This document shows positions 35-30,213 of a DNA stretch of 31,559 nt, piece by piece. Source of the stretch: a bacterium. GTDB lineage: Bacteria > T1Sed10-126. The DNA lies in NCBI GenBank assembly GCA_003557545.1, contig PWOD01000001.1, forward strand, positions 1 through 31,559. Reading direction: 5' to 3'. The translations under genes and the position numbers were made by a program. Each line of letters begins with the position of its first letter. Position 1 is the stretch's first letter. Under the pieces are notes generated by a model, which was not told the origin of the DNA, did not search any database, and was given only the letters and a program-made list of their open reading frames with translations.

Positions 35-1354
35 ATGGGATTTTTCAATTTTGCTCCCTCATTCAGAGGTGGAACCCATCCACCCGGGAAAAAATCAGCG
101 ACGGTCTCCCGACAGGTCAAACCGATTCCCCTCCCCTCAACTCTGTACTTACCACTTAACCAGCACGCAGGGGCAATGGCCGAACCTGTAGTAAAAAAGG
201 GGGAGAGTGTGGTGCGTGGACAACTGCTGGCAGAACCAGCCGGGGAAATCTCCGCCGCCCTACACTCACCGGCCGGCGGAGAGATCAAAAAGATCACCCC
301 CCATCTAACTCCCTGCGGCCAGCGAGTTCCCACAATAGTCCTTTCAGTTGATCCAAAAAATACTGAAACTAACTTCTATCAACCCTATGAAAATTTACAG
401 AAAATTACTCCCCGCCAGATCAAAGAACGGGTCAAACAAGCTGGAATAGTCGGATTGGGCGGCGGCGCCTTTCCCACTTCAGTTAAACTCTCACCACCGG
501 CTGACAAACCAATCCATACTGTTATTCTAAACGGTTGTGAATGTGAGTCATTCCTCACCTCCGATCATCGAATGATGGTTGAACGACCTGACCAGATCAT
601 CCAGGGGTTACAGCTACTGATCAGAGCAGTCGAAGCTGAACGGGGAATAATCGGTGTGGAAAACAATAAACCTGATGCTATCAAAATACTCAAACAAAAA
701 CTTGCCAACAACGATAGGATAACTGTTCAAGCGGTCCGGGCCAAATATCCCCAGGGCGTGGAAAACATGCTGATTTATGCCCTCACGGGCAAAAAAATAT
801 CTGCCCGGGAATACCCGGTCGACAAAGGGTTCCTGGTCAATAACGTCAGTACTGCCGCGGCAGTTTCAGAAGCTGTTTTCCAGGGCAAACCACTTATCGA
901 GCGGATTATTACCCTATCAGGTCCCGGGCTTAAAAAACCGGGCAACTTCCTGGTCCCTCTGGGGACTTCTTTCAAAGAGCTAATTTCCCATTGTGAACCG
1001 GATGAAGATTTCAGCCTGGTCCTGGCCGGCGGCGCGATGATGGGTACCAGCCAGGCTGATCTGTCAGCTCCTACGGTCAAAGCCACCGGCGGAGTTGTAG
1101 TTCTCGACAGCCGCTACCTGCAAACGACCGATGAACATCCCTGTATTCGCTGCGGCAGGTGTGTAACCGGCTGTCCCCAGCAGCTGGTTCCAACCAAATT
1201 AACCCGGTTGATCAAATCGCACAGATTTTCTGAAGCTAAACAGCTACACGTTGATAGCTGTCTTGAATGTGGAGTTTGTTCTTATGTTTGTCCCTCCAGT
1301 ATCCCCCTGGTTCACTGGCTGAGAGTCGGTAAAAACCGGGAGATAAACGAATGA
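35..1354 (+). CDS. rnfC: Rnf complex subunit RnfC
   Basis: Peripheral electron-transfer subunit of the membrane Rnf complex, which couples ferredoxin oxidation and NAD+ reduction to Na+ or H+ pumping. The 439-residue length is normal. The glycine-rich nucleotide/FMN motif GLGGGAFPT lies at residues 140-148, followed by NGCECE at 166-171. Two [4Fe-4S] motifs sit near the C terminus: CxxCxxCxxxCP at 370-381 and again at 409-420. The ATG is preceded by GAAAGGA. It is the first visible gene of the cluster and overlaps rnfD by ATGA. Any promoter lies upstream of the window or within its first 34 bases. Identification is firm from the motifs and the rnfCDGEA order. Confidence 0.97.
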   Translation: MGFFNFAPSFRGGTHPPGKKSATVSRQVKPIPLPSTLYLPLNQHAGAMAEPVVKKGESVVRGQLLAEPAGEISAALHSPAGGEIKKITPHLTPCGQRVPTIVLSVDPKNTETNFYQPYENLQKITPRQIKERVKQAGIVGLGGGAFPTSVKLSPPADKPIHTVILNGCECESFLTSDHRMMVERPDQIIQGLQLLIRAVEAERGIIGVENNKPDAIKILKQKLANNDRITVQAVRAKYPQGVENMLIYALTGKKISAREYPVDKGFLVNNVSTAAAVSEAVFQGKPLIERIITLSGPGLKKPGNFLVPLGTSFKELISHCEPDEDFSLVLAGGAMMGTSQADLSAPTVKATGGVVVLDSRYLQTTDEHPCIRCGRCVTGCPQQLVPTKLTRLIKSHRFSEAKQLHVDSCLECGVCSYVCPSSIPLVHWLRVGKNREINE

Positions 1355-2304
1355 AGCCAGAACAGTTGCAGGTGCAATCGGCTCCTCACATACCGGCCAC
1401 GGGCTCGACCCCAATGATTATGAAGTCAGTTATCCTGGCACTACTTCCCGCCGTTATAGCCGGCAGCTATTTTTTCGGTTTTAGAGCTCTTTTGGTTATT
1501 TTTACCTGTATTATTTCAGCCCTGATTTCCGAAACAATCTTTCTCTTAATTCGCCGGCGCAAACCGCCCCTGATGGATGGCAGCGCCCTGTTAACCGGTC
1601 TACTGCTGGGCCTCTGTCTTCCAGTTACAATACCACTCACCCTTGCCGCCCTTGGTTCCGTTGTGGCAATTGTCCTGGGCAAGCAGATATTTGGTGGTCT
1701 GGGTTACAATATTTTCAATCCGGCGTTAATTGGACGAGCCTTTTTACAGGCTTCATTCCCGGTTATTATGACGACCTGGATAGCACCGATCAACAGCTGG
1801 TTTAATTCAACAGTTAACGCTACTACCACAGCCACACCGCTGGCGGCACCGGCCGAGTTTTCATACCGGCAACTATTGATTGGCACAACTGGCGGCAGTA
1901 TTGGAGAAACCTCCGCAGTGGCACTTCTCCTGGGAGGGTTTTTCCTGCTGATTTTAAAAAATATAGATTGGAGAATCCCCACTGGATTTCTGCTATCAGC
2001 CGGAGTGGTCAGCGGCCTGCTCCACCTTTATGACCCCGGTCATCCGGACCCGCTCACACAACTGCTATCAGGAGGCCTGATACTTGGGGCCTTTTTTATG
2101 GCAACCGATATGGTCAGTTCTCCTATCAATCCAATCGGCACCTGGATTTATTCTTTAACCGGAGGAACCCTTGTAATTATCTTTCGAATTTTTGGCGGGC
2201 AGCCCGGTGGAGTTATGTATGCTATTCTATTGGTCAATGCTCTAACACCAATTATTGATCGCTACACTCATCCCCGGCCTTTTGGGGAGACGATTTCAAG
2301 ATGA
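1351..2304 (+). CDS. rnfD: Rnf complex subunit RnfD
   Basis: Integral membrane subunit of Rnf, homologous to NqrB, which carries a covalently bound FMN. The 317-residue protein has many hydrophobic segments from about residue 25 onward. The motif TATPLA at 160-165 matches the flavinylation site, which makes Thr162 the expected FMN attachment residue. Other family features are KQIFGGLGYNIFNPALIGRA around 111-130 and the C-terminal GG-rich membrane segment. The start ATG overlaps the rnfC stop, and the end overlaps the rnfG start, so translation is probably coupled. Confidence 0.96.
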   Translation: MKPEQLQVQSAPHIPATGSTPMIMKSVILALLPAVIAGSYFFGFRALLVIFTCIISALISETIFLLIRRRKPPLMDGSALLTGLLLGLCLPVTIPLTLAALGSVVAIVLGKQIFGGLGYNIFNPALIGRAFLQASFPVIMTTWIAPINSWFNSTVNATTTATPLAAPAEFSYRQLLIGTTGGSIGETSAVALLLGGFFLLILKNIDWRIPTGFLLSAGVVSGLLHLYDPGHPDPLTQLLSGGLILGAFFMATDMVSSPINPIGTWIYSLTGGTLVIIFRIFGGQPGGVMYAILLVNALTPIIDRYTHPRPFGETISR

Positions 2305-2864
2305 AACTATCGATTCGCATGATCATCGTACTGGGAATTATCACGCTGCTTTCCGGAGGGGTTCTCTCAATACTTAACAACTGGGCCGAACCACGCATTG
2401 AACAGCATCGACAACAGCGCATCATTGACTCCATCAACCAGCTTTATCCGGGCCAGCCGGACCACAAAAAAATTGCCAGTTATGCAGAAAATCTGCCAAT
2501 CTACGCCTGTTATGACGATGCTGGAGAAACTATCGGTTTCGCCTTCCAGGCCCGGGGAATTGGATACGCAGATGAAATCAGACTGATGGTTGGACTTGAC
2601 CGCTCATTAGAACAGCTGACAGGTCTGTTTGTTCTCGAACAGACAGAAACCCCGGGCTTAGGAGCGCAGATCACTGAGGACAAATTCCAACAGAAATTTG
2701 CCGAACTCGAGTTATCAGCTGACGAACCGAGCATCGAACTGGTTGATCGGGATCCGTCAGCCGGGCAGGTTGAAGCGATTACCGGCGCCACCATATCCTC
2801 CGAGGCGGTCATCAATATAATCAACCGGGCGCTGCCCAGGATACGCAGGGAGCTGGCCCGATGA
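2301..2864 (+). CDS. rnfG: Rnf complex subunit RnfG (covalent FMN protein)
   Basis: A 187-residue protein with one N-terminal membrane anchor (about residues 5-25) and an FMN-binding domain. The motif ITGATISS at 160-167 is the RnfG/NqrC flavinylation site, with Thr164 the expected FMN-phosphodiester residue. ETPGLGAQI at 116-124 is another conserved family motif. It passes electrons between the other Rnf subunits on the outer face of the membrane (family knowledge). Four-base overlaps with rnfD and rnfE show a tightly coupled operon. Confidence 0.96.
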   Translation: MKLSIRMIIVLGIITLLSGGVLSILNNWAEPRIEQHRQQRIIDSINQLYPGQPDHKKIASYAENLPIYACYDDAGETIGFAFQARGIGYADEIRLMVGLDRSLEQLTGLFVLEQTETPGLGAQITEDKFQQKFAELELSADEPSIELVDRDPSAGQVEAITGATISSEAVINIINRALPRIRRELAR

Positions 2865-3466
2865 AAAATCAATACTGGCATGATTTTGGCAAAGGAATCT
2901 GGCAGCTAAACCCGGTTTTTAAACAACTTCTTGGGATGTGTCCGGTCCTTGCAGTAACCACTACAGCAATCAACGGACTATCCATGGGACTGGCCACCGC
3001 TTTTGTCTTGATCAGTTCAAGCCTGATAGTTTCACTAATAAAAAATCTTATCCCCCGCCAGGTTAGAATCGCTTCCTATATTGTAATAATTGCAACTTTT
3101 GTTACTACCGCCGATATGATACTTGCGGCCCTGTTCCCGGAGATAAGCCGGGCCCTGGGACCCTATGTTCCACTGATCGTGGTTAACTGTCTGATTCTCA
3201 GCCGCCAGGAGGCATTTGCCTCGGACAATTCAATCGATCGAGCTTTTATGGACGCCCTGGGTATGAGTGCCGGTTTCACCTTCGCTCTACTGGCCCTGTC
3301 CGGCGTACGTGAACTGCTGGGAACAGGTGAAATATTTGGGGTGCCGCTGGCGGCTGGATTATTCGAACCGTGGATGGTTATGATTCTTCCGGCCGGGGCA
3401 TTTATTTCTCTGGGCTTTTTAATTGCCCTGGTAAACCATACCAGCCAGTCCCTGGGATGGGATTAA
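2861..3466 (+). CDS. rnfE: Rnf complex subunit RnfE
   Basis: A 201-residue integral membrane protein of the RnfE/NqrD family, with about six hydrophobic helices and the typical start region ending in NPVFKQLLGMCPVLAVTT. The family's conserved pattern of a Cys in one half-membrane helix (LGMCP) and another in the inverted repeat (VVNCLIL) is present. These Cys coordinate an iron cluster shared with RnfA in known Rnf/Nqr structures. The start overlaps the rnfG stop by ATGA. One base separates its stop from rnfA. Confidence 0.96.
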   Translation: MKNQYWHDFGKGIWQLNPVFKQLLGMCPVLAVTTTAINGLSMGLATAFVLISSSLIVSLIKNLIPRQVRIASYIVIIATFVTTADMILAALFPEISRALGPYVPLIVVNCLILSRQEAFASDNSIDRAFMDALGMSAGFTFALLALSGVRELLGTGEIFGVPLAAGLFEPWMVMILPAGAFISLGFLIALVNHTSQSLGWD

Positions 3467-3467
3467 A

Positions 3468-4046
3468 ATGGAACTAATTTTGCTGTTTCTCTCGGCTGTC
3501 CTGGTAAATAATTTTGTTTTAACCTATTTTCTTGGCATCTGTCCTTTCCTCAACATCTCCAACCGGCTGGACTCCGCCTTCTCCCTGGGCATGGCAACAA
3601 CATTTGTAATGACCATGACCGCCGCAGTAAGCTGGTTAATAAATAATTTCATCCTTATCCCCTATCAGCTCCAATATCTTGAATACGTAGCCTTCATCCT
3701 GGTTATCGCCTCCCTGGTTCAACTGGTTGAAATGTTCATTCAACGAATAAGCCCATCGCTGTACGAAGCCCTCGGTATATTTCTTCCACTAATTACGACT
3801 AACTGTGCAATTCTCGGGATGGCCTTATTTGCATCCATGCGCGGCTACAGTTTCATTCAAACAATCATTTACGGATTTGGAGCGGGTACTGGTTTCACCC
3901 TGGCAATTCTAATTATGGCCGGTATTCGTGAACGATTAGAACTGGCGGATGTGCCCCAGCCCTTTAAAGGTGCACCAATCACTCTGCTTATAGCTGGGAT
4001 ATTAGCCCTGGCCTTCATGGGTTTTGCCGGCCTGTTAGCCGTCTAA
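3468..4046 (+). CDS. rnfA: Rnf complex subunit RnfA
   Basis: A 192-residue integral membrane subunit, sister of RnfE (NqrE-like). It has about six membrane segments with inverted topology and the paired motifs LGICPFLN and TTNCAILG, whose Cys residues bind the intramembrane Fe-S centre in characterised homologues. The start codon follows the rnfE TAA after one base. In most rnfCDGEAB clusters rnfB follows directly. Here two extra membrane genes lie between rnfA and rnfB. Confidence 0.96.
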   Translation: MELILLFLSAVLVNNFVLTYFLGICPFLNISNRLDSAFSLGMATTFVMTMTAAVSWLINNFILIPYQLQYLEYVAFILVIASLVQLVEMFIQRISPSLYEALGIFLPLITTNCAILGMALFASMRGYSFIQTIIYGFGAGTGFTLAILIMAGIRERLELADVPQPFKGAPITLLIAGILALAFMGFAGLLAV

Positions 4047-4087
4047 AAATATTAAACATTAAAACGTCCGGTGGTTGATTAGTTGTT

Positions 4088-4813
4088 ATGCTTAAAAAAT
4101 CAAAAGAACTACCGTTCATAATAACCCTTTCATTTCTCTGTGGATTTATCTTTATACGGCTGGCAGTTTTTCTGGCCGGCTCAGCCGACACAGTCTTTGC
4201 GGAAGCTGCCAAACTGGGCGAACTACCCGATCAGTATTTTCATATTGGATCAAATATAATTTTGTTTGGCCACCATATTCACCATTTTTATTTTGGGGTG
4301 GCGATGATTGCCGTCGCCGGCTGGTTAGCCCTCGTTGGCTCGGAGTTTTTCACCAAACAGGTGCTGGCCTCAATCTATGGCTTTGGTCTGGGACTTTTCA
4401 TGGATGAAATAGGTTTACTCCTGACCTGGGGTGATTATTACAGCCGCCTCTCCTATCTCCTGTCAGTTCTACTTGCAGGAATCTTTCTTAATATCGTTTT
4501 TTTTCACGATTACTGGGTGAGTATTCGGGATAATCTTATTTCTTCTACCTTCTATCAACTAGTTCAAAAAAGTTTTTTGCGCCCCGACAGTTTTCTAAAA
4601 CTGGCCGACAGAATCAGTCAAACCACAGGTCAAACCGAGAAAACTGCTCTTGTTTTTAGTGGTTTAATCTACCTTGGCGCCGGCCTGCTGGTGATCCGTT
4701 ATCCAGCAATAATCCGCGCGGCCATTATGCTGATCTTCTTTCTCCAGGGAACCAATTATTTAGTCCAATTTTTCTACTCAGGAAGTGATAAAGGTGAAGA
4801 TCCAACTATATGA
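4088..4813 (+). CDS. Integral membrane protein of unknown function inside the rnf cluster
   Basis: Not recognised with certainty. It has 241 residues and about six to seven hydrophobic segments. The middle holds polar residues in or next to membrane segments: HHIHHF at 62-67, MDEIG at 105-109 and WGDYYSR at 114-120, which could form a metal or proton site (inference only). A separate two-helix hairpin at about 188-230 resembles DUF308/HdeD-type hairpins and is echoed by the next small gene. It lies 41 bases after rnfA on the same strand and is probably co-transcribed with rnf. A GGTGG-type ribosome site precedes the ATG. It may be an accessory or assembly factor of Rnf, or an unrelated passenger. 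Confidence 0.8.
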   Translation: MLKKSKELPFIITLSFLCGFIFIRLAVFLAGSADTVFAEAAKLGELPDQYFHIGSNIILFGHHIHHFYFGVAMIAVAGWLALVGSEFFTKQVLASIYGFGLGLFMDEIGLLLTWGDYYSRLSYLLSVLLAGIFLNIVFFHDYWVSIRDNLISSTFYQLVQKSFLRPDSFLKLADRISQTTGQTEKTALVFSGLIYLGAGLLVIRYPAIIRAAIMLIFFLQGTNYLVQFFYSGSDKGEDPTI

Positions 4814-4970
4814 ACGATTACGACTGTTATTAACCGGTATAGCTTATTTTACTGCGGGTATTTTAATCATCACCCACCCCCGTTTTTTTTATTACTGGGT
4901 TGCAGCCATCTTTCTGTTCCAGGGTGCCGTCTCGCTGCTACGTTCACTCGCCCAACAAAAATTCATCTGA
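4794..4970 (+). CDS. Small two-helix membrane protein (DUF308/HdeD-like hairpin)
   Basis: A 58-residue protein predicted to span the membrane twice. The GTG at 4794 is preferred because AGGAA at 4780-4784 lies nine bases upstream. An in-frame GTG at 4785 touches that ribosome site. The gene overlaps the end of the preceding one by 20 bases, implying translational coupling. Its core (from GIAYFTAG to FLFQG) aligns without gaps to residues 192-221 of the preceding protein with 11 of 30 identities by hand, so it looks like a duplicated C-terminal hairpin. Function unknown. Confidence 0.65.
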   Translation: MKIQLYERLRLLLTGIAYFTAGILIITHPRFFYYWVAAIFLFQGAVSLLRSLAQQKFI

Positions 4971-5054
4971 TATGATCTGAAAAATCCCGGATATTTGATA
5001 GAATATAGCTAGGTGCAAAATTAATATCAACTGTTTTTTAAAGGTGAATTAAAA

Positions 5055-5840
5055 ATGGATTTAACCGCTGTAATCAGCATGGCAATAATGGGCGTTCTAT
5101 TTGCTGCAGGCCTCGCTCTGGCACACCAGAAACTTAAACTGGAAGAGGATGATCGAATCGAGCAGGTTGATGAACTGCTCCCCGGAGCGGACTGCGGAGC
5201 CTGTGGTTACGCCGGATGTGAAGCAATGGCCCGGGCCCTGGTCGACGGTGAAGTTGTTCCCCAAAAATGTCCGGTTGCCGATGATGCAACCTACCAAAAA
5301 ATTGCCGATCTGCTAAATCTATCATCCGACAGCTCCAGCTCTGATTTGGTGGCGCGGGTGCTCTGCCGGGGTGGGAAAGAGGAAGCTAAACAGCTGGCAG
5401 CATATCGAGGAATCAACACCTGTGCCGCGGCCAACCTGGTAAATACAGGAGGAAAAGCCTGCACCTACGGTTGTCTGGGTCTGGCTGATTGTGTGGCTGC
5501 CTGTAAGTTTGACGCACTTGAGATGAACGATAATGGACTGCCGGTGGTTAATGATGACAACTGCACAGGATGTAATGCCTGCGTCATCGCCTGTCCGCGT
5601 GACATCATCGAACTGCACGAGAGAGAACAAAAGCTATTTGTCTGGTGCCTGTCCGAAGATGACCCGGCAACTTCGCGCAAAAGCTGTACAGTAGCCTGTA
5701 TTGGTTGTGGAATCTGTGCCAAACTCTGCGACGGGGTGGAAATGAAAGAGCCCAACCTCGCCGTAGTGAGCGAAACCAATGCTCCAGACTGTGATCAGGG
5801 TGTAGAAAAATGTCCTACAGATGCAATTGATTACAAATAA
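5055..5840 (+). CDS. rnfB: Rnf complex ferredoxin-type subunit RnfB
   Basis: Electron-entry subunit that accepts electrons from reduced ferredoxin. The 261 residues start with a membrane anchor (about 4-24), followed by the Fe4S domain with Cys47, Cys50, Cys55 and Cys72. A two-cluster ferredoxin domain uses Cys136/140/146/150 and Cys170/173/176/180. A further Cys-rich C-terminal region has Cys211/215/218/221/225 plus Cys246 and Cys253, as in clostridial-type RnfB proteins that carry extra clusters. AAGGTGA sits before the ATG. It is separated from rnfA by about 1 kb holding two membrane genes. Confidence 0.96.
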   Translation: MDLTAVISMAIMGVLFAAGLALAHQKLKLEEDDRIEQVDELLPGADCGACGYAGCEAMARALVDGEVVPQKCPVADDATYQKIADLLNLSSDSSSSDLVARVLCRGGKEEAKQLAAYRGINTCAAANLVNTGGKACTYGCLGLADCVAACKFDALEMNDNGLPVVNDDNCTGCNACVIACPRDIIELHEREQKLFVWCLSEDDPATSRKSCTVACIGCGICAKLCDGVEMKEPNLAVVSETNAPDCDQGVEKCPTDAIDYK

Positions 5841-5862
5841 TACCCCGGGAGCCATATAAATA

Positions 5863-6321
5863 ATGGTAACAGCGGTTGTAAATGATTTAGAAGACTCAAC
5901 GGTCAAGCTAACCTGCAAAGAATCAACAAGTTGTGATAACTGCACAGGTCCAGGCTGTAAAACGGGGGACAAAGAGGTGCAACTAACGGCAACAAATCCC
6001 TATCAATTTCAACTTAATCCCGGTGATCTTGTGGAGGTTGAGCCAGCGACTGGAATTTTTTGGCCCCTGACCGGTCTGCTGTTTGTTAGCCCACTTTTAC
6101 TGTTTATCCTGGGCACTGCCGGGGGAGCGTTCCTGGCCCCACTGATAGCACCAGGTCTTGCTGCAGAACTTGTCGGTTTTTTAACTGGAATAGCAGTTCT
6201 ACTGCTATCTGTCCCGGTGATCAGACTGGGCCTTAAGCGGGTCAACCAGAGCTTGCCACTGCTGTCTGTTACCCGGGTTATAAACTCCGTAGAAGCTGAT
6301 TCGAATCAGACCCAACCATAA
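5863..6321 (+). CDS. rseC: RseC/SoxR-reducing system family membrane protein
   Basis: A 152-residue protein with the RseC layout: an N-terminal cytoplasmic Cys-rich part (Cys18, 24, 27 and 32 in the pattern CxxxxxCxxCxxxxC) followed by two membrane helices at about 66-88 and 98-125. In E. coli, RseC works with the Rsx (Rnf) complex in keeping SoxR reduced and also modulates RseA. Here it follows rnfB by 22 bases with a GGGAG ribosome site, so it is most likely an Rnf-associated factor, perhaps in cluster or flavin maturation. The exact role in this organism is inference. Confidence 0.85.
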   Translation: MVTAVVNDLEDSTVKLTCKESTSCDNCTGPGCKTGDKEVQLTATNPYQFQLNPGDLVEVEPATGIFWPLTGLLFVSPLLLFILGTAGGAFLAPLIAPGLAAELVGFLTGIAVLLLSVPVIRLGLKRVNQSLPLLSVTRVINSVEADSNQTQP

Positions 6322-7687: not shown

Positions 7688-7911
7688 TTTTTACCCCTAC
7701 GATCAGGATTTATTGTGCAATTTAAACTTATAAATTGTATCCACACACCCTTATATCCGCAACCCTCAAGCAAACGATTACTGCCAAATTCCTATTAACT
7801 CATCAGGTACCAATTTTTTCAAACAAAAGTGGTTTTAAACTGATAAAATTAGTGATTGATGATAATCTGTTGATAGTATTCAACTTAATTGCTTATTCGG
7901 GAGGAATTAGA

Positions 7912-8808
7912 ATGGCCTTAAAGATCGGAGTTATCAGCAGTTGCATTATGGACTTAACTTTTGAAGTCGCAACACTCCCTCAACCCGGCGAGACAATCTC
8001 AGCAGAAAATTTTCATACCGGTTTCGGAGGCAAAGGTGCCAACCAGGCTGTAGCTGCTGCCAAAACCGGCGGCGATGTCAGAGTGATCGGGGCCGTCGGC
8101 AAAGATGATTTTGGCGATAAAACAATCAGCAACTTCCAGGACCAGGGGATCGACAGCAGCCAGATCTTCCAGTTCTCTGAAGCCGGCACAGGTCTGGCAG
8201 CAATCTATGTTGACCGTCAGGGCGAAAACTCAATCGGAGTAGCACCCCGGGCCAACCGGCTGTTATCTCCCGAGCAGATCGAAACTGTTCCCCGAAAATG
8301 GTTTGAAGAGATAGGTATTTTAGCAGGGGTTCTGGAAATCAATACCGATGTTCTTATTGCCGGCTTCCGCCGGGCCAAACAACAAAAAGATACAATTACT
8401 ATATTAAACGCTGCCCCGGCTCGAGAAATCCCTCCAGAACTATGGGAGCTGATCGATATCTTGATAGTCAACGAAACAGAAGCTCAATTTTTTTGTGGAC
8501 AGCTGCCCGAGTGGGACTCTCCGGAACAGGTAATGAAAAAACTTCACAATTTGGGACCAACAACTGTTGTCCTCACCCTGGGCAAATCGGGAGCCATATC
8601 CTCCACAGCTTCCGGACTTTCCAGAGTTACTGGAGAGAAGGTCACAGCAGTTGACACAACAGGTGCCGGTGATGCTTTTATCGGACGTTATCTCAGCGCT
8701 CTGGCCCAAGAAAAAGAGCAACTTGAAGCAATCCAGCTGGCTAACTCCTATGCCGCTCAAACCGTACAAAAACCGGGCACACAAAAATCTTTTCCAATCT
8801 TAAGCTGA
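7912..8808 (+). CDS. rbsK: Ribokinase-type PfkB family sugar kinase
   Basis: A 298-residue kinase. The ATG at 7912 was chosen because GGGAGG lies just upstream and the protein then begins, as usual for ribokinases, at the first beta strand. The upstream extension is not family-like. Sugar-binding GFGGKGANQA lies at 37-46, NETE at 187-190, and the anion-hole/ATP motif DTTGAGDAF at 248-256 with catalytic Asp254. It would phosphorylate ribose or deoxyribose at O5. The distinction cannot be made by eye, but a deoxyribokinase or ribokinase would feed the pentose-phosphate BMC locus 10 kb away (inference). Confidence 0.88.
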   Translation: MALKIGVISSCIMDLTFEVATLPQPGETISAENFHTGFGGKGANQAVAAAKTGGDVRVIGAVGKDDFGDKTISNFQDQGIDSSQIFQFSEAGTGLAAIYVDRQGENSIGVAPRANRLLSPEQIETVPRKWFEEIGILAGVLEINTDVLIAGFRRAKQQKDTITILNAAPAREIPPELWELIDILIVNETEAQFFCGQLPEWDSPEQVMKKLHNLGPTTVVLTLGKSGAISSTASGLSRVTGEKVTAVDTTGAGDAFIGRYLSALAQEKEQLEAIQLANSYAAQTVQKPGTQKSFPILS

Positions 8809-8916
8809 TTTTTTATTTACACTGCTCTTTGTCTGGATAGTTTGCCATCGGCTTGACAAAGTTACTGGATAAATGAGAAGCTATTTGCTTTCAAAATTAT
8901 CTGGAGAGGACTTCCT

Positions 8917-11172
8917 ATGACTTTAAACAATAGTTGTTCCATCTTAAAAAAAACAAAAAACAATCGATTAAAAGAGTTATTACAGCAGCTATATAGATTT
9001 TTTCAGTCATCCGGACCACTGCAATTAATTTTAATTGCTTCTCTTATTGGAATTGTTGGAGGGCTTGGTTCGATCGCCTTCAAATATCTTATTCTGTTCT
9101 TTAAATTCCTCTTCTACGGAGCCACCTCTACCGATGGATTTCTATCTGTCGTCCTGGCTCTACCATGGTGGTGGAGAGTCCTGGCACCAGCGCTGGGCGG
9201 ATTAATAATTGGACCGCTAATCTATTTCATCGTCCCCGAAGCCAAAGGCCATGGTGTCCCCGAAGTAATGGAAGCAGTAGCTGTAAAAAAAGGCTTGATC
9301 CGGTTTCGGGTAGTCCCACTAAAAGCAGTTATATCCGCCATCTGCATCGGTTCTGGTGGTTCGGCCGGACGGGAGGGTCCAATTGTTCAGATCGGTTCGG
9401 CTTTCGGCTCAACCCTGGGTAACTTTTTAAAACTCTCACCAACCCGGACAAAAACCCTGCTGGCGGCGGGAGCAGCCGCTGGAATCGCTGGAACTTTTAA
9501 CGCGCCACTGGCCGGAGTAATTTTTAGTATTGAAGTTATCCTGCGAAAAATTAAACCGACTGATTTCGCTACAATTGTCATCGCCTCAGTTATCGGCACA
9601 GCTGTTTCTAATGCCTTTGCCGGGGGAATCTATTCGGTATTTAATGTCCCCCCCCATAGACTGATCAGCATGTGGGAGCTTCTACTGTACATCGGACTGG
9701 GCCTGGCAGCGGCGATAGTTGCCCTGATTTACGAAAATACTCTCTATGCCATGGAAGATATCTTTGAAAAAATTAAACTCCCTCCCTACCTTCTGCCAGC
9801 TCTCGGAGGTCTATTGCTGGGTCTATTAATTCTGGCAGTCCCGGGTGTTCAGGCCACCGGTTACCCGGTCATGGAAGAAGCTCTACATGGAAATCTTCCC
9901 CTCCAGATGGTCTTTTTCTTTATGATTGCCAAAATTTTAGCAACTATTTTTAGCCTGGGTAGCGGTGGGTCCGGGGGAATTTTTGCACCGGCCCTTTTTA
10001 TCGGTTCCATGCTTGGAGCCACCTACGGACATATCGTCAACAACTGGCTGCCCAACCTGACCGGTGGCCCCGGCTCTTACGCCATGGTCGGAATGGGGGC
10101 TGTCTTCGCCGGCGCTACCCATGCACCGCTCACAGCTATTATTATTCTTTTTGAAATGACCCACGACCATCGAATAATTCTCCCCATGATGTTTGCCTGT
10201 ATCATTAGCTCATTTGTCACTAAACTCTATCAGAAGAAAAACATCTATACGACCAAACTGTTAAAGCGAGGTCTCGACATCGACACTATCGAAGAACAGA
10301 ACCTGCTGGAAAATATTACTGTTGGTGACGCGATGACCAAAGATCCCATAACTATTGATGAAAATGCCACAATCGCAGAAGCCAGGGAATATTTTGCTAA
10401 AAGTTTTTATTCAAATCTCCCTGTAATCCGATCGGAAACAGGAGAATTAACCGGTGTTTTAAGTCATGAACAGGTTTTTTCTGCTGCTGAAAATGATCAA
10501 AAACAGTTGGTTCGTGAGGTCAGCATGCCACCCGGAGCTACCCTCTATGAGAACGATAGTTTACTGGAAGCAATCCAGGACATAAGTCAAATAGCGGTGA
10601 AAATCATTCCGGTGCTGGCCAGCGACGATTCTAACCGGCTTGTGGGTGTTCTGGCTCGGGGTGATATACTGGATAACTATTCTAAACAGATTTTCGATTC
10701 ACAGGAGGAAATTACTTTTAACATTAAAGCCGAAACACGGATCAGCGTTTCAGAGCTTGTCCATAACTCACTCAGACCACTTAAAAATCAGTTTCAAAGC
10801 AAAGGAGTTAAACTGACTACCAGAATAAAGAGTAATCTACCTGAAATCGGGGTTGATTTCACTAAGATGAGTTGGGTAATAACCAGCCTCCTGGGCAACG
10901 CTCTACGCTACTCTGAAGCTAATGATGAGGTCATCTTTAAAGTCCAACAGACTGATAATATGATAGTTTTCCAGGTGATTGACAACGGTTCTGGTATGAG
11001 TAAAGACTGTCAAAAATCTATCTTTGGTAATGATACCGATAAACCGGATCCACAAAAATGCCAGGGACTGGCAATCGCCCGGGAGATCATTGAGGGACAC
11101 GGTGGAAAAGTCTGGATTGAAAGTACTCCCGGCGAAGGAACAGAGGTTAGCTTTTCGCTTCCTCTGGATTAA
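8917..11172 (+). CDS. CLC chloride channel/transporter fused to CBS pair and histidine-kinase-type ATPase domain
   Basis: A 751-residue protein. Residues about 35-440 are a full CLC membrane domain with GSGGSAGREGP at 145-155 (gating Glu153), GSGGIFAP at 351-358 and Tyr444. The position of the internal proton-transfer Glu reads FSIEV (203-207), with Val207 as in CLC channels. Two CBS domains follow at about 465-520 and 533-588. The C terminus (about 606-751) is an HATPase_c domain with N-box NALRYS (Asn661), G1 DNGSG (689-693), G2 QGLAIA (716-721) and the final GEGTEVSFSLPL strand. No phosphoacceptor His box is evident. Typical CLC proteins end after the CBS pair. The frame is continuous and the ribosome site GGAGAGG is good. 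Confidence 0.93.
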   Translation: MTLNNSCSILKKTKNNRLKELLQQLYRFFQSSGPLQLILIASLIGIVGGLGSIAFKYLILFFKFLFYGATSTDGFLSVVLALPWWWRVLAPALGGLIIGPLIYFIVPEAKGHGVPEVMEAVAVKKGLIRFRVVPLKAVISAICIGSGGSAGREGPIVQIGSAFGSTLGNFLKLSPTRTKTLLAAGAAAGIAGTFNAPLAGVIFSIEVILRKIKPTDFATIVIASVIGTAVSNAFAGGIYSVFNVPPHRLISMWELLLYIGLGLAAAIVALIYENTLYAMEDIFEKIKLPPYLLPALGGLLLGLLILAVPGVQATGYPVMEEALHGNLPLQMVFFFMIAKILATIFSLGSGGSGGIFAPALFIGSMLGATYGHIVNNWLPNLTGGPGSYAMVGMGAVFAGATHAPLTAIIILFEMTHDHRIILPMMFACIISSFVTKLYQKKNIYTTKLLKRGLDIDTIEEQNLLENITVGDAMTKDPITIDENATIAEAREYFAKSFYSNLPVIRSETGELTGVLSHEQVFSAAENDQKQLVREVSMPPGATLYENDSLLEAIQDISQIAVKIIPVLASDDSNRLVGVLARGDILDNYSKQIFDSQEEITFNIKAETRISVSELVHNSLRPLKNQFQSKGVKLTTRIKSNLPEIGVDFTKMSWVITSLLGNALRYSEANDEVIFKVQQTDNMIVFQVIDNGSGMSKDCQKSIFGNDTDKPDPQKCQGLAIAREIIEGHGGKVWIESTPGEGTEVSFSLPLD

Positions 11173-11278: not shown

Positions 11279-12763
11279 TTAACGTTTCCAATAAGCCGGA
11301 GTAAAAACGATCAGCACAGTAAATATTTCTAAACGGCCCAGCCACATTAACAAAGTGCAGATAAACCGTCCTATTCGGGAAAGTTCAAGATAATTATTAA
11401 ATGGGCCAAAACTTCCCAGAGCCGGCCCAATGTTTCCAAGGGTGGCCGCCACAGCACTCATCAATTCAATCGATTGAAACTCATGACCAACCCGAAAAGC
11501 ATCCAACTGTAAAAATAACGTTCCAAGTAAAAATATTGAAAAATAAGCAAGGATCATCGTCATTATATTACTTATAACATCTTCTTCTATAATTTTTGCG
11601 CCCATATGTAGTGGTTTGATGGCATCCGGATGAACAGTTGTAAATAACTGGCGAAAAATCGATTTCAATCCAACATACCACCGCACAACCTTTATCCCTC
11701 CACCAGTTGAACCGGCACAGCCACCGACAAACATCAATAAAAAAATAATCGTCAGGGCAAATCCGGGCCATAGGGTAAAATCGGCGCTGGCAAAGCCGGT
11801 TGTAGTTATAATTGATAAAGTTTGAAATAAACTATGCCGGATTGTTTCTAACAGATCCAGATCCATCACAGAACCTATAGCGACAACCACTAAAACTGCT
11901 CCCGTTAAAATTATCACTGAATAAAAAATAAACTCACGATTTTTCAAAGCAGAAAAATCACCATTCAACACCCACCAGATTAAAGCAAAATTAGTTCCGG
12001 CTAAAAACATAAAGGGAATTATCGTCCACTGAACGGCTGGTGAAAACTCTGCAACCCCATTAGCCAGAGGAGAAAAACCACCGGTTGGCATGGTTGAAAA
12101 GGCATGAGCAAAAGCATTATAAAGATTCATTTTAGGATCTAAACCTATAATGTTGATGGAAAAAAGTAATATTACCAATAATAAAGTCAAACCAACATAA
12201 ATTATCCAGAGTTTTTGCGCTGTTCCAACTATTCGTGGTTCAAGCCGCTCAACTGAAGGACCCGGAGCTTCCGCCTCGATTACCTGACTTCCACCAACCG
12301 CCAGTTTAGGAAGAATGGCAACAGCCAGAACAATTATCCCCATTCCCCCCAGCCACTGTGTTAACTGCCGCCACATCATAATTGCCGGCGAATGAAATTC
12401 TAAAGATATTTTGTCCATAACCGTGGCCCCGGTAGTCGTAAAACCACTCATACTTTCAAAAAAAGCATTTACCGGCAGAGCAACTGTTCCTCTCCCGGCC
12501 AGAACATAAGGTATGGCCCCCATTATCGCCACAACCAGCCAGGTTAACATTACAAATAAGAAACCTTCCCGGATACCAATCTCCGGGGCTTCTTTAAAAC
12601 CTGCACACAAACTACCAATAACTAAAAAAATTACGATAGTAACAAAGAAAACAGCAATATCACTGGCGGTAAAAATAGCGATCGTCAAGGGAATCAATAA
12701 AGTCACCGAAAGACCGATCAATACCGTTCCCATCAAACTCAATACACTGCGGTAATCAATCAT
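11279..12763 (-). CDS. trkH: TrkH-type potassium uptake channel subunit
   Basis: A 494-residue integral membrane protein of the SKT family (E. coli TrkH has 483). It contains four M1-P-M2 repeats with pore motifs SGFTTTGATV, STMPTGGFS, ITTTGFASADF and ATLGNIGPA, whose central glycines form the K+ filter. It follows trkA with a two-base gap, so the pair is one operon. It converges on the CLC gene, with a 106-base AT-rich spacer that shows no convincing terminator. Confidence 0.95.
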   Translation of the reverse strand: MIDYRSVLSLMGTVLIGLSVTLLIPLTIAIFTASDIAVFFVTIVIFLVIGSLCAGFKEAPEIGIREGFLFVMLTWLVVAIMGAIPYVLAGRGTVALPVNAFFESMSGFTTTGATVMDKISLEFHSPAIMMWRQLTQWLGGMGIIVLAVAILPKLAVGGSQVIEAEAPGPSVERLEPRIVGTAQKLWIIYVGLTLLLVILLFSINIIGLDPKMNLYNAFAHAFSTMPTGGFSPLANGVAEFSPAVQWTIIPFMFLAGTNFALIWWVLNGDFSALKNREFIFYSVIILTGAVLVVVAIGSVMDLDLLETIRHSLFQTLSIITTTGFASADFTLWPGFALTIIFLLMFVGGCAGSTGGGIKVVRWYVGLKSIFRQLFTTVHPDAIKPLHMGAKIIEEDVISNIMTMILAYFSIFLLGTLFLQLDAFRVGHEFQSIELMSAVAATLGNIGPALGSFGPFNNYLELSRIGRFICTLLMWLGRLEIFTVLIVFTPAYWKR

Positions 12764-12765
12764 AT

Positions 12766-14112
12766 TTATTCAACCTGCTCAGCAATCTCCTCTGCCTTTT
12801 CCGCGTCCGCCAGGATGACCAGCCTGTCACCAGGTTGTACCACAGTGTCACCCCGCGGGGTGATCAGCTCAGAATCACGCACTATAGCTCCAATTGTCAT
12901 AACTCCTGACAGAGATTTAGTCCCTTCCCGCAAAGGTCTACCAACCAGCGGACTACTCTTTCCAACAGACATTTCATAAACTGTCCCTTTGTGATGTTCG
13001 ATACTGGTTATATTTTCTGCGTAATCAACCTCGATATAGCGGATGATTTCATTGGCCATTTCTTCCCGAGGATTCACAACAAAATCAATCGCAGTGGCTT
13101 CAAACAGATCGACAAAAGCATTCTCATGAACCAGCGAAAGTACCTGAGCAACTCCCCACTGCTTGGCCAGCAAACAGAGCAAAAGATTTTGACAATCCGG
13201 ACTAACCGCCCCCACAACTAAATCAACCTGATTTAAATTCTCCCGCTCCCAGATCTGTTCATCCTTCGCATCACCCTGTAAAACCAGCACGTCCGGTAGT
13301 TTTTCAGCCAGATATCGCGCCCGCTTTTCATCCTGCTCAATCATGATAAGATTTACCTTATATTTTTGTAACTGCCGGGCTATCTGATAACCAAAATTTC
13401 CCCCACCCAGCAGCAAAATATCTTCAATTTTTCCTCTAACCTCGGCCGGATTAAGTTCCTGACCAAACTCCTTAACCCGAGCCGGATCACCAATTACTGC
13501 TACTTTATCCCCGGTCTCAATAGTGTCCTGACCCCGCGGAAAAATAATTTTATCATCACGGAAAATCGCGCCAAAAGTCAACCGGGAAAAACGATCAGAA
13601 ACTGCCACACTGTTGCCCGCCAGGGGACTACCATCAGGCACTTCATAAACAGCCATCTGAACCCGATTATCTACAAAATATTCCATCTCACGAGCCGGTT
13701 GACGGCGGGAACTATAGGTAATAAGACGAACAATATTTTCGGCTGCCTGCAGGGCCCGGCCCAGCATTAAATCAACTCCAAAAGCCCCGGTTGACTTCTG
13801 CCAGGTCTGAAGATAATCGGTATTCATGACCCGAGCGATTGTAAAAATATCTTTTTCTAACTTTGCCGTATTACAGATCATGATATTAGTCTGATCAAGA
13901 TTAGTAGTGACAATCAACACATCGGCTTGTTTAAGACCGGCCTTTTTAAGTACATCCAGCTCGGTTCCATCACCATGAGTAACTTCAATCGAACGGGGAA
14001 CAGAATCAAGAGTTGAAATATCAGAATCAATCAGATGAACAGTATGATCGGAAACTAACTTTCGTGCTACCTCCTGCCCCACCTGCCCCGCTCCAACAAT
14101 TAACATTTTCAT
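12766..14112 (-). CDS. trkA: TrkA: K+ uptake regulatory subunit with two RCK domains
   Basis: Cytoplasmic NAD(H)/nucleotide-binding ring protein that gates TrkH. The 448 residues form a tandem of RCK_N-RCK_C units. Rossmann motifs are GAGQVG (about 7-12) and GGGNFG (about 236-241), each followed by a TrkA_C domain. The ATG at 14112 is preferred because GAGG lies nine bases upstream and homologues start at MKMLIVGAG. An in-frame ATG at 14121 lies directly against that ribosome site. It is transcribed from an extended -10 promoter facing the ktrB promoter. Confidence 0.95.
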   Translation of the reverse strand: MKMLIVGAGQVGQEVARKLVSDHTVHLIDSDISTLDSVPRSIEVTHGDGTELDVLKKAGLKQADVLIVTTNLDQTNIMICNTAKLEKDIFTIARVMNTDYLQTWQKSTGAFGVDLMLGRALQAAENIVRLITYSSRRQPAREMEYFVDNRVQMAVYEVPDGSPLAGNSVAVSDRFSRLTFGAIFRDDKIIFPRGQDTIETGDKVAVIGDPARVKEFGQELNPAEVRGKIEDILLLGGGNFGYQIARQLQKYKVNLIMIEQDEKRARYLAEKLPDVLVLQGDAKDEQIWERENLNQVDLVVGAVSPDCQNLLLCLLAKQWGVAQVLSLVHENAFVDLFEATAIDFVVNPREEMANEIIRYIEVDYAENITSIEHHKGTVYEMSVGKSSPLVGRPLREGTKSLSGVMTIGAIVRDSELITPRGDTVVQPGDRLVILADAEKAEEIAEQVE

Positions 14113-14143
14113 AACTATCATCCTCGAAAACTGCTGCTGGTCT

Positions 14144-14185: not shown

Positions 14186-14234
14186 TTCAGCGCGATTGGA
14201 TGCACCAACTAAAATATCAACTCTGGTGAAAAAT

Positions 14235-15530
14235 ATGTTGAACTGGTTTTATCAGCTGCACCCGGTCACCCGGGCAATCATTGGTTTTATTACAGTTATT
14301 CTACTGGGCGGTTTTTTACTCTGGCAGCCTATCAGCACACCGGGACCGGAACATCTTTCCTTCACAGATGCGATTTTTACCGCAACCTCAGCCGTCTGTG
14401 TTACCGGCTTGATAGTTGTTGATACCAACGAGGATCTATCTCATTTCGGGCAACTGGTAGTTTTATTGCTGATCCAGATAGGAGGGCTGGGAATCATTCT
14501 TGCCTCGGCTTTTCTGATCTTAGGATTAAGACATACAATTAGTCTGAAATATCGTCGTTCAGTCCAGCAAAATTTTATAAACTGGCCCATAAAAAAAGTA
14601 AAAAAAGCATTGTTCAGAGCCTTTCTGGTGATATTCGCAATTGAGGTTATTGGGGCTGGCTTGTTAACCTATGCCTTCAGTGAAAAACATGATTTTTTCA
14701 CCGCCCTCTGGCACGGAGTTTTCCACAGTATTTCAGCGGTTTGTAACGCTGGTTTCAGTCTTAACAGTGACAGCCTGATACAGTGGGCGGACAATCCACT
14801 GGTAATAGTAACAGTTGGGCTGCTAATTATTGCCGGAGGAATAGGATTTCTTGTCCTGGCTGAAATTTTCAGTTATAACAAAGTTTCTCAAAAACTATCG
14901 ATCCACACTAAAACAATGCTGGCCGGCTCAGGGATTTTAATCGTTACTGGATTTATAGCCTTCATGATTCTGGAACCGAACTGGACCTATCTCGATTATC
15001 TATTTCAATCGATCACACCCCGGACGGCTGGTTTTAACAGCATAGATCTCAGTAAATGGTCATCAGCCTCCCATCTTATTCTTATGGTTTTCATGTTTAT
15101 CGGTGCCGGGGCGGGCTCCACAGCCGGTGGTATTAAAATTACAACTGCCTGGGTCGTAATTGCCAACATGATCTCAAGAATCCGCTATCACCGCCATACA
15201 CATATTTTTAAACGCCGCCTGCACTGGAAACAAATCAACCATGCACTTGTTTTGCTGTTCATCGGAATAATGATAATATTTATCATAACTTTCACACTCA
15301 CAATAACCGAAAATGCTGGTTTTAAAGAGATCCTGTTCGAAGTCTTTTCAGCCCTGGGGACCGTCGGTCTATCTCTGGGAATAACTTCAGAACTCTCGTT
15401 TTTAGGCCGCTGGATTGTTATAATAACTATGTTTTTAGGTAGATTGGGTCCGTTGACTTTTGCACTTATAATAATCTCTCCCAATCAAGAATGTTACACC
15501 TATCCGGAAGAAAAGGTCTTGATTGGCTAA
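14235..15530 (+). CDS. ktrB: KtrB/TrkH-family potassium (Na+-coupled) channel subunit
   Basis: A 431-residue membrane protein with the KtrB pore signatures SAVCVTGL, SAVCNAGFS, ITPRTAGFN and SALGTVGLS. Each holds the selectivity-filter Gly, one per M1-P-M2 repeat. The ATG at 14235 is chosen because GGTGA sits five bases upstream. An in-frame TTG at 14196 lacks a ribosome site. In characterised systems KtrB imports K+ with Na+ dependence and is gated by KtrA. It is divergent from trkA and followed by ktrA after 12 bases. Confidence 0.93.
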   Translation: MLNWFYQLHPVTRAIIGFITVILLGGFLLWQPISTPGPEHLSFTDAIFTATSAVCVTGLIVVDTNEDLSHFGQLVVLLLIQIGGLGIILASAFLILGLRHTISLKYRRSVQQNFINWPIKKVKKALFRAFLVIFAIEVIGAGLLTYAFSEKHDFFTALWHGVFHSISAVCNAGFSLNSDSLIQWADNPLVIVTVGLLIIAGGIGFLVLAEIFSYNKVSQKLSIHTKTMLAGSGILIVTGFIAFMILEPNWTYLDYLFQSITPRTAGFNSIDLSKWSSASHLILMVFMFIGAGAGSTAGGIKITTAWVVIANMISRIRYHRHTHIFKRRLHWKQINHALVLLFIGIMIIFIITFTLTITENAGFKEILFEVFSALGTVGLSLGITSELSFLGRWIVIITMFLGRLGPLTFALIIISPNQECYTYPEEKVLIG

Positions 15531-15542
15531 GGTGATCTAATT

Positions 15543-16202
15543 ATGCAATTTGCTATAATCGGATTAGGCTTGTTTGGTTCCAAACTTGCTCTGGAGCTTT
15601 CCAACGCCGGACATGAAGTTCTCGTTATCGACAATGATGAAAGTCATATTCAGGAGATTCACAACCGGGTCACTGAAGCTATAATCGGTGATGCAACTAA
15701 TGAAGAACTGATTGAAGAACTGATCACTTCCGATTTTGCGGCTGCGGTCGTAACAATTACTGAATCGATTGAAGCCAGTTTATTATCTGCTTTAAATTTA
15801 CAGAAGGTCGGGGTTAAGCAGATCTACGTTAAATCAAATCAGCCCGAACACAGCCAGATATTAAAACGTATGGGTATCAAACATATCATTAAACCTGAAG
15901 AAGAAGCGGCTGTCAAACTGGCCAAATGCATCAGCTCTCCAAAGGTTGTTGATCTTATCATTTACAGAGATGAGTTGAGTTTTCTTGAGCTGAAATCTCC
16001 CCAAAAATTTGTTGGTAAAGATTTAAAACAACTTAACCTCCGTAAAAAATATAATGTTCAGGTTTTTGGAATACAGCAGGCAGATGAAACTGAAATGGAT
16101 ATAACTCCTTCCCCATCATATAGATTCAAGCCTGACGATTTGATTCTCCTGGCAGCTTCCAAAGAATCTATCAACAGATTTGTCGATAAATTCGGCAATT
16201 AA
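15543..16202 (+). CDS. ktrA: KtrA: RCK-domain regulatory subunit
   Basis: A 219-residue single RCK protein with the Rossmann motif IIGLGLFGSKLA (about 4-15), acidic IDND at the end of the second strand, and a C-terminal TrkA_C domain from about residue 135. It forms the cytoplasmic ATP/ADP-sensing octameric ring on KtrB (family knowledge). AAGGTGAT precedes the ATG. It ends 16 bases before the convergent ZIP gene. Confidence 0.93.
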   Translation: MQFAIIGLGLFGSKLALELSNAGHEVLVIDNDESHIQEIHNRVTEAIIGDATNEELIEELITSDFAAAVVTITESIEASLLSALNLQKVGVKQIYVKSNQPEHSQILKRMGIKHIIKPEEEAAVKLAKCISSPKVVDLIIYRDELSFLELKSPQKFVGKDLKQLNLRKKYNVQVFGIQQADETEMDITPSPSYRFKPDDLILLAASKESINRFVDKFGN

Positions 16203-24836: not shown

Positions 24837-25688
24837 CTAACTGTTTAACCTGTCAACCCCCCAGAGAGCTATGCCCAGTGGTGTTATAACTATTGGGTTA
24901 TTTGGTTTTAAAACCGGTTTCTGCAGAACATCAGCAAAAATTGTTTCAAAACCCTCCGGTATGACTGTCCCGCCCACAAGATATATCGGTTGTTTTTGAG
25001 GAAAGCGGACCAGCTCCTTCTCAACTATGCTGGCCATCTTCTCCACCACAGGTTGAACAATCCCCCGGTAAGCAGAAAACGGTTCGGTTATTTTAAATTT
25101 TTCGGCAGCCTCATAATCAATCCCCTGATTGCCCGATATAACCAGGGAAAGATGATGCCCGCCGGTCGCCTCATCAGCAGTATGGATAACCTGACCATTC
25201 TCAACAATCGAAATACCGGTTGTGCCGCCTCCCACGTCAACGATAACCCCCTGATCAATCTCCAGTGCAGCCGCGGCCGCCGACGGTTCGGAGATCTCCC
25301 CAATCACCTCGAACCGGCAATCCTTAACCACATTAGATTCAACCCAGGGTTCAGTCCCCGGGGGATAACCGACAGCCGCATAATCTAAACTTATCTCATC
25401 AGGAAACTGCTCTTCCAACTGCTGCTTAAAATCGGCCACTACCTGACGTGCACCAGCATAATCAACAACTATTCCATCCCGGACCGAACTATCCCACTGA
25501 AACCGGGCGGCCACCGCTTCGCCACCGGCATCAAGTACAATCATCTGAATATTTGATGTCCCCAGATCGATACCCGCCACCAGCGGGGGAGCAAAAGAAC
25601 TTTTTACCTCCCCGCTACTAATTAGCTGCTGAATCTCAGTTAATCGTTTTTCCACAGGGGTTATTTCAACCGTTTCAGTTGTCTCCAT
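24837..25688 (-). CDS. eutJ: EutJ-like Hsp70/actin-fold ATPase of the BMC locus
   Basis: A 283-residue protein with the ASKHA ATPase motifs: phosphate-1 GIDLGTSN (39-46), phosphate-2 VDVGGGTTGIS (150-160) and adenosine motif YLVGGTVIPEGFE (236-248). The length and arrangement match EutJ, a presumed chaperone or assembly ATPase of ethanolamine-type BMCs, whose role is not firmly established. The ATG at 25688 is chosen as GGAGG lies ten bases upstream. An in-frame TTG at 25697 abuts the ribosome site. It follows capA by five bases, so it may be transcribed with the polysaccharide genes as well as with the BMC set. Confidence 0.9.
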   Translation of the reverse strand: METTETVEITPVEKRLTEIQQLISSGEVKSSFAPPLVAGIDLGTSNIQMIVLDAGGEAVAARFQWDSSVRDGIVVDYAGARQVVADFKQQLEEQFPDEISLDYAAVGYPPGTEPWVESNVVKDCRFEVIGEISEPSAAAAALEIDQGVIVDVGGGTTGISIVENGQVIHTADEATGGHHLSLVISGNQGIDYEAAEKFKITEPFSAYRGIVQPVVEKMASIVEKELVRFPQKQPIYLVGGTVIPEGFETIFADVLQKPVLKPNNPIVITPLGIALWGVDRLNS

Positions 25689-25693
25689 ACCAA

Positions 25694-26830
25694 TCAATCC
25701 TCCGCACTCAAAGCCACCGAATAGACTGCTCTATCCCAGGTTGCAAATTTTTCAGTCTGCTGCAGATAGTTATTTAACTCGTCGGTTGTATTAAAAGTTA
25801 CAACCGGCTGAGGTCGATAATTGACCTGATAATTATTTACATTCAATAGATTGTAGCTAACTGCCGACAGCCCACCATTACTGAGAGTTATCCGGGGAAC
25901 CAAGCCATATTGAACATTCTGGCTCAAGGTAGTAAAAAAATAGTTGCCCAGACTGTAAAAAATAACTCCATCGTTATAATATTCGACCGGTTGTAAGGTA
26001 TGGGGATGATGACCAAAAACCACCGTGGCACCGGCATCGATAGCAGCTCTCCCCAGATTTTTCTGATAGGCCTGCGGAGTAATCTCCAGTTCCCTTCCCC
26101 AATGAAACGAAACAATAGTATAATCGGCAATCCGCGCAGTTTCAGCCACCAGTTTACGTACCCTGTCAAAGGCGCCAAAGGCAGCTCCCGGACTCTCGTC
26201 ATCGGCCCAAAAAGCTTCAGGAAATGTATTAGAAAAAGCTAAAAAACCGATTTTTTTGCCCCGACGCCGAAACAATGCCGCTGTTTCTGCCTGTTGCCGA
26301 CTGGTTCCGGCTCCGCTGTATTTTATTCCAGCCTTCTGTAGCTGCTGAATTGTGTCCAGTAAACCAACCGTGCCGTAATCCATAATATGATTATTGGCCA
26401 GACTAACCCCATCAACACCCAACTCCTGAAGCAGTGGAATCACCTGTTCTGAACTCTGGCGCAGATGATACCGCTTATCGATCCACGGCTCACGATGATC
26501 GGTGATCGGTGCTTCAAGATTTACCAGTTTAAGATCTGCACCACCGATTATTCCCTCCAGCTGCTCCGTGAATAACCCTATCCCCTGCTGATTTAATTGG
26601 TTTTTTATACGCTCACCAAAATATATATCTCCTCCCACAACCAGCTGCAGTTCGGCCGGTTCCGAAAGCTCCACGGGGGATTCCACAGAACCATTAAACA
26701 GATTGTAAAACAGGATGATCATGGCAAGTAAAACAACCACGGCGAGGATGCTCTTTCGGTTTATTCCAAAACTCTTCAACTTAATCCAAACCTTTAAATT
26801 AGACCCGTTCGGGATCTGATTCACTACCAT
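25694..26830 (-). CDS. CapA-family (PGA_cap) metallophosphatase-fold protein
   Basis: A 378-residue protein with one N-terminal membrane anchor (about 27-46) and an external domain carrying the CapA signatures VVGGDIYFGERI, NLEAPITDH, GVSLANNHIMDYG and VFGHHPHTLQPVEYY followed by IFYSLGNYFF. Members act in polyglutamate or polysaccharide capsule biosynthesis or have a calcineurin-like phosphoesterase fold with unclear substrate. The frame from ATG 26830 overlaps the upstream gene by 32 bases. A later start (TTG at 26779) is possible, and no strong ribosome site decides. Confidence 0.88.
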   Translation of the reverse strand: MVVNQIPNGSNLKVWIKLKSFGINRKSILAVVVLLAMIILFYNLFNGSVESPVELSEPAELQLVVGGDIYFGERIKNQLNQQGIGLFTEQLEGIIGGADLKLVNLEAPITDHREPWIDKRYHLRQSSEQVIPLLQELGVDGVSLANNHIMDYGTVGLLDTIQQLQKAGIKYSGAGTSRQQAETAALFRRRGKKIGFLAFSNTFPEAFWADDESPGAAFGAFDRVRKLVAETARIADYTIVSFHWGRELEITPQAYQKNLGRAAIDAGATVVFGHHPHTLQPVEYYNDGVIFYSLGNYFFTTLSQNVQYGLVPRITLSNGGLSAVSYNLLNVNNYQVNYRPQPVVTFNTTDELNNYLQQTEKFATWDRAVYSVALSAED

Positions 26831-30114: not shown

Positions 30115-30213
30115 AAATTAATCCTCTCAACTACAAATTTCCAGCCAAACTTATTAACCATCAAAAATCTATTCCAAACATTTTTTATATCAGATTAAAC
30201 CGGCTAATAGCCT

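Follow-up and report, generated by a model that had tools for sequence, protein, structure and literature searches.

A single open reading frame in a 31,559-nucleotide stretch of bacterial DNA (hereafter the window) joins a CLC pore, a pair of CBS domains and the ATPase domain of a histidine kinase. The locus raises the question of whether such a protein is real and, if so, where its C-terminal domain came from and what that domain might do on an anion channel or transporter.

Domain layout and the pore

The gene (positions 8917..11172; it and all its features given below lie on the + strand) encodes 751 amino acids and is preceded by an RBS-like GGAGAGGA (8903..8910), six bases 5' of the ATG. 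Its CLC pore domain, residues 94-435 (9196..10221), aligns to E. coli-type CLC structures and matches the Pfam entry Voltage_CLC (PF00654) at 352.6 bits against a cut-off of 24.8 (E = 3e-105), over profile positions 1-345 of 346, making it complete. Two stretches match the CBS entry (PF00571; E = 2.7e-19, above the cut-off), the first at residues 469-523 (10321..10485) and the second at approximately residues 535-590 (10519..10686), with limits estimated from the alignment. Residues 651-750 match HATPase_c (PF02518) at 68.1 bits against a cut-off of 26.4 (E = 1.1e-18). An earlier note on this DNA had read one unbroken frame with a full CLC pore, a CBS pair and a C-terminal HATPase_c domain; the frame itself and the Pfam search that the note proposed, in which all three families score above cut-off, bear this out.

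The ATPase domain is of the histidine-kinase CA (Bergerat) type and spans residues 600-750 (10714..11166), as judged from Pfam, an AF2 model and fold matches. Its start near residue 600 comes from kinase alignments and the model, in which the segment normally found 3' of the kinase DHp is present. No DHp stands ahead of it: the fusion tail has no HisKA/DHp match in Pfam up to E = 1, and a whole-genome profile search with PF00512 gave no match at the fusion loci, confirming the lack of a His-phosphoacceptor helix that had been reported before. The junction therefore coincides with the DHp/CA border and follows immediately on the second CBS domain. An ordinary kinase acting in cis is ruled out by the missing DHp. 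As for the anti-sigma kinases of the SpoIIAB/RsbW type, PF13581 (HATPase_c_2) scores 14.2 bits, below its cut-off of 27.4.

In the pore, the external gating glutamate E153 (motif GREGP; 9373..9375) is a glutamate in 45 of 45 aligned CLCs. Alignment to 1kpl places V207 (9535..9537) where EcClC has its internal proton glutamate (E203), a site at which 43 of 45 relatives have Val, Ile or Leu; the internal glutamate of the exchanger subtype is thus absent. Mutating it in the E. coli exchanger abolishes proton transport (PMC5362633), so the window protein, with Val at that site, may function as a channel or as a transporter that lacks coupling. The gene product appears to be a ClcB-like CLC anion channel or transporter, two classes that sequence alone does not tell apart.

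With ClcB-like prokaryotic CLC-CBS proteins (NCBIfam PRK01862, matched at 372 bits, below its 482-bit cut-off), the fusion shares the pore, the gating glutamate, the CBS pair and, with most of the relatives compared, the Val or Ile at the internal proton-glutamate site. Unlike the fusion, the proteins of this kind found here stop after the CBS domains or carry a tail of ~100 amino acids, which we assigned by eye as TrkA_C (RCK)-like; such post-CBS tails occur in L049, L050, L055, L058, L064 and others. The earlier statement that CLC proteins end after the CBS domains was too strong, as many relatives have this tail and one has a PTS EIIA domain.

Relatives, origin and genomic neighbourhood

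The same fusion is present in five proteins from four genomes and two phyla, with no internal stops. A genome of a second genus in the same family as the window genome (G001) carries it at 71% identity, between neighbours (a ribokinase-type gene and TrkH) that also flank the window gene, and the fusion protein of the named record T1Sed10_126 (PWHN01000061) matches the G001 copy. In another phylum, CSSed10_371m (labelled Elusimicrobia) has a copy at 57% identity together with a second, more distant paralogue, and one further fusion occurs in G400; altogether, 2 of the 16 genomes of that phylum carry the fusion. The isolate names correspond to soda-lake sediment datasets, T1Sed of high and CSSed10 of moderate salinity (PMC6146748). 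Since the two named records are soda-lake MAGs, at least some of the fusion-bearing bacteria come from soda lakes.

The window genome is fragmented (239 contigs), and the earlier note had warned that an assembly or sequencing error might have joined two genes, or that relatives might carry them separately. Both concerns are excluded by the five loci. Four more loci have the same junction without internal stops, and no fewer than two of these come from separately deposited MAG records, a recurrence that rules out an artefactual joining and leaves it a negligible probability.

The survey of the architecture in related genomes that the note had proposed has been run; there are four more loci, and the architecture is rare elsewhere among the matches listed. 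In a family-spread set of 386 genomes with more than 250 family labels, and with matches listed down to about 237 bits, the tail is covered among those listed only in the window genome and G001. Among the matches listed for the remaining genomes of the set, there is no HATPase_c tail and none extends past residue 640; very divergent tailed CLCs could escape this survey. A second survey, centred on G059 (the genome with two copies of the fusion), took in mostly the same genomes and adds little, and no fusion occurs in the phylum (4 genomes) to which the closest CLC without a tail (G247) belongs. A contig scan limited to two peptide patterns returned two fusions (L041 and L042). CLC or kinase matches were obtained in 1125 plasmid records, none of which covers 80% of the query, and viral contigs gave no match. 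In the open-access library searched, we found no paper describing a CLC/HATPase_c fusion. Taken together, the fusion is real, conserved, and rare but recurrent in two phyla.

Placed in a tree among 25 kinase CA domains, the five fusion CA domains form one clade (support 99/94), with the more distant copy of G059 (paralogue B) as its first branch. The kinases nearest to the fusion tails are two ordinary ones (L097 and L099), which share the N-box pattern WV-x-SNLIGNALRYT. The five CLC parts likewise group in one clade (100/100) with the CLC of L043, whose placement inside that clade is weakly supported (90/74). L043 comes from a soda-lake MAG of the Spirochaetaceae (PUOG01000222), and its gene (L043:4798-7056) codes for a CLC-CBS-PTS_EIIA_2 fusion; the product belongs to the same CLC clade and carries a signalling domain in the same C-terminal slot, in this case an EIIA_2 phosphotransfer domain and not HATPase_c. 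On the simplest account, other orders of events being possible, a CA domain would have been captured once by a CLC ancestor, and EIIA would later have taken its place in the L043 lineage. The fusion was probably transferred between phyla.

Upstream of the window fusion lies a PfkB/ribokinase-type gene (7735..8808, + strand) and downstream a TrkH K+ uptake protein (11279..12763, - strand), both identified by Pfam and syntenic in G001. They are followed, on Pfam evidence, by a TrkA K+ uptake regulator (12766..14121, - strand), a second TrkH (14196..15530, + strand) and a second, short TrkA/KtrA-like regulator (15543..16202, + strand), so that the two K+ uptake systems reported beside the gene are indeed there, as two TrkH/TrkA pairs after it. 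The G001 fusion neighbours TrkH and a TrkA-type ORF. The first copy of G059 and that of G400 adjoin an Mrp operon with an MnhG subunit fused to EIIA, and an SLC12-like gene lies upstream of the G400 fusion. Paralogue B (L047:1462-3705) sits in a one-strand run of Mrp, MnhG-EIIA, CPA2-EIIA, CLC-HATPase and SLC12-like genes. All five genes thus adjoin Trk, Mrp, CPA2 or SLC12-type transporters, which supports the osmotic or ion-homeostasis context suggested previously.

The EIIA_2 fusions of these regions, MnhG-EIIA_2 in G059 and G400 and a CPA2 Na+/H+ exchanger-EIIA_2 in G059, lie at L079:11186-12055, L079:9471-11186, L080:3918-4754 and L078:4588-5424. EIIA_2-matching open frames of similar size also occur in the window genome (G000:C98) and in G001 (C80); beside the window fusion itself, no EIIA gene was recognised. 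In another genome (G043:C6:16181-19965), two HATPase_c frames on the - strand lie upstream of a CLC gene without a tail on the + strand, at a distance of ~0.8 kb, and are possibly separate kinases. The window also holds, ahead of the region, an RNF-type electron transport cluster (35-6321; RnfC, RnfD, an Fe-S protein, then an RseC/MucC family gene) and, at 24840-31392, glycosyltransferase, UDP-sugar dehydrogenase and PGA_cap capsule-synthesis genes that probably form a surface polysaccharide cluster.

State of the ATP site

We compared the motifs of the five fusion tails with those of the 25 histidine kinases, calling the window protein and three others type A and paralogue B of G059 type B. 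N661, in the N box WVITSLLGNALRYS (10873..10914), is kept in all five fusions and all 25 kinases. D689, G691 and G693, in the G1 box DNGSGM (10981..10998), and G717 are likewise kept in every fusion protein. The first N-box Asn is replaced by Ser or His in type A (S657 in the window protein, where 24 of 25 kinases have Asn), and the F box of the window protein has lost its second aromatic. The ATP lid of type A is shorter than in most of the compared kinases, by several residues in the window protein (11026..11052). The G2 box of the window protein (11053..11070) reads QKCQGL, and that of type A as a whole [QE][KR]C[QL]GL, instead of the canonical GxGxGL, so that two of the three glycines are lost: position 713 is Gln or Glu in all four type-A fusions versus Gly in 23 of 25 kinases, and position 715 is Cys in all four versus Gly in 25 of 25. 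The boxes had previously been described as intact, which holds for N661, D689, G691 and G693 but fails for G2 (residues 713-718) and for the first N-box Asn. Only paralogue B among the fusions has a canonical ATP site, with the full N, G1 and G2 set (G2 = GKGLGL).

Judged by these motifs, the CA domain of the window protein looks worn out and pseudokinase-like. The pair K/R714-C715 is common to all four type-A proteins, and because this [KR]C replacement is conserved across two phyla, it points to a new constraint on the G2 box rather than simple decay. Sequence has changed faster in the CA domain than in the pore (identity 54% versus 82%), and in the closest pair (G059A/G400A) dN/dS is 0.39 for the CA part versus 0.09 for the pore, at a dS of 0.42. 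The CA part is therefore under purifying selection, looser than that on the pore; its faster evolution might also reflect drift in a tail that is half dispensable.

Structure prediction of the tail, another step proposed earlier, yields a CA fold. In an AF2 model of residues 455-751, the CA domain is confident (pLDDT mostly about 70-90 outside the lid, below 50 in the lid) and the CBS part is weak. The best matches among solved structures are histidine-kinase CA domains (VIA Z 18-20), with DivL at the top (Z 20.4), tied with several others. The full-length AF2 model is poor (mean pLDDT 50) and offers no CA-CBS interface in support of coupling.

Possible roles of the kinase-derived tail

With slightly better than even confidence, we favour the reading that a pseudokinase-like CA domain has been reused as a cytosolic module regulating the CLC gate via the CBS domains. 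We observe here the architecture and its conservation, the grouping of the tails in a single clade, the absence of a DHp, the degeneracy of the G2 box and lid, and the transporters nearby; that the gate is regulated, what ligand or partner is involved and which way control runs are what we infer. The CA domain would derive from a histidine kinase of the ordinary kind, severed immediately behind the DHp, and would since have turned pseudokinase-like. It may bind nucleotide weakly or not at all, or dock a partner protein, and its state would be relayed via the CBS pair to the gate. Next to transporters of K+ and Na+, the module might in this way adjust anion flux to the energy or ion status of cells that presumably must balance Na+, K+ and Cl-. 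The TrkA_C-like or EIIA domains that relatives carry in the same slot support a regulatory module. Among the three readings that the earlier note had offered for the ATPase domain, a non-catalytic gating module is the best supported, and an active kinase, in cis or in trans, is disfavoured for the window protein because its G2 box and ATP lid are degenerate.

The HisKA-type kinases WalK, HK853, ThkA and VanS share with the fusion the CA fold and the N and G1 motifs; the fusion differs from them in having no DHp or phosphoacceptor His and, in type A, in its degenerate G2 box and lid. DivL, a Caulobacter pseudokinase, resembles the fusion tail as a reused kinase core that makes little or no use of ATP: it has no kinase activity, binds ATP weakly and was crystallised without nucleotide (PMC4211667). 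DivL differs in that it retains a DHp and a full set of boxes, has no transporter fused to it and has DivK~P as its binding partner. Several eukaryotic CLCs are modulated by CBS-bound ATP, and ClC-1, ClC-2, ClC-5 and ClC-6 resemble the favoured reading in their cytosolic nucleotide modulation through CBS domains (PMC10575590); in these proteins, unlike the fusion, the nucleotide lies between the CBS domains and there is no Bergerat-fold domain. The fusion is probably best filed among the CLC-CBS proteins, and the proposed mechanism appears plausible.

The canonical ATP site of paralogue B counts against a regulatory module, in that one or more members of the family could have catalytic activity. 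At least paralogue B might then be a channel-enzyme, a CLC that uses ATP in its kinase domain to gate flux or to phosphorylate in trans, with type A as the pseudokinase counterpart, which we regard as unlikely. The tail could instead be an ATP/ADP sensor proper, with Mg-nucleotide in the usual CA pocket opening or closing the CLC and thus providing a second nucleotide site besides the CBS pair. The five residues kept in all five proteins and the full motif set of paralogue B fit such a sensor; in type A, however, the lid and two G2 glycines out of three are lost, so this reading is possible but doubtful.

A CA domain without a DHp needs an acceptor elsewhere, and the tail might phosphorylate in trans a DHp or another acceptor, for example the EIIA on the neighbouring MnhG or CPA2, in which case anion flux would control signalling. 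EIIA-fused antiporter subunits do adjoin the fusions in G059 and G400, and type B is canonical. HPr, however, is present in three of the four fusion genomes and can serve EIIA, which therefore needs no other phosphate donor there, and the window fusion lacks a recognised EIIA neighbour. A PF00512 search of the window genome found no CA-less (DHp-only) HisKA partner. Two things make phosphorylation in trans seem unlikely for type A: a G2 box that is no longer intact and, in each of the window genome's four HisKA proteins, a CA domain of its own. The degenerate lid speaks against such phosphorylation as well; it is conceivable for type B, and we give it little credence overall. That the tail is merely a decaying passenger without function would agree with its faster evolution, its lost motifs and the EIIA that one clade member has in its place. 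Yet the frame is intact in five loci and two phyla, dN/dS is below 1 and the new K/R714-C715 pair is conserved throughout type A, making a functionless tail very improbable.

If the tail regulates the pore, as in the reading that we favour, a CLC would be under the direct control of a kinase-derived domain, and a sensor-kinase ATPase module would be working outside two-component signalling. Since types A and B coexist in one genome, nature itself offers the same channel with a worn ATP site and with an intact one for comparison. The transporter neighbourhood and the soda-lake origin of the named records suggest that the fusion may serve to match chloride flux to Na+ and K+ transport in haloalkaliphiles.
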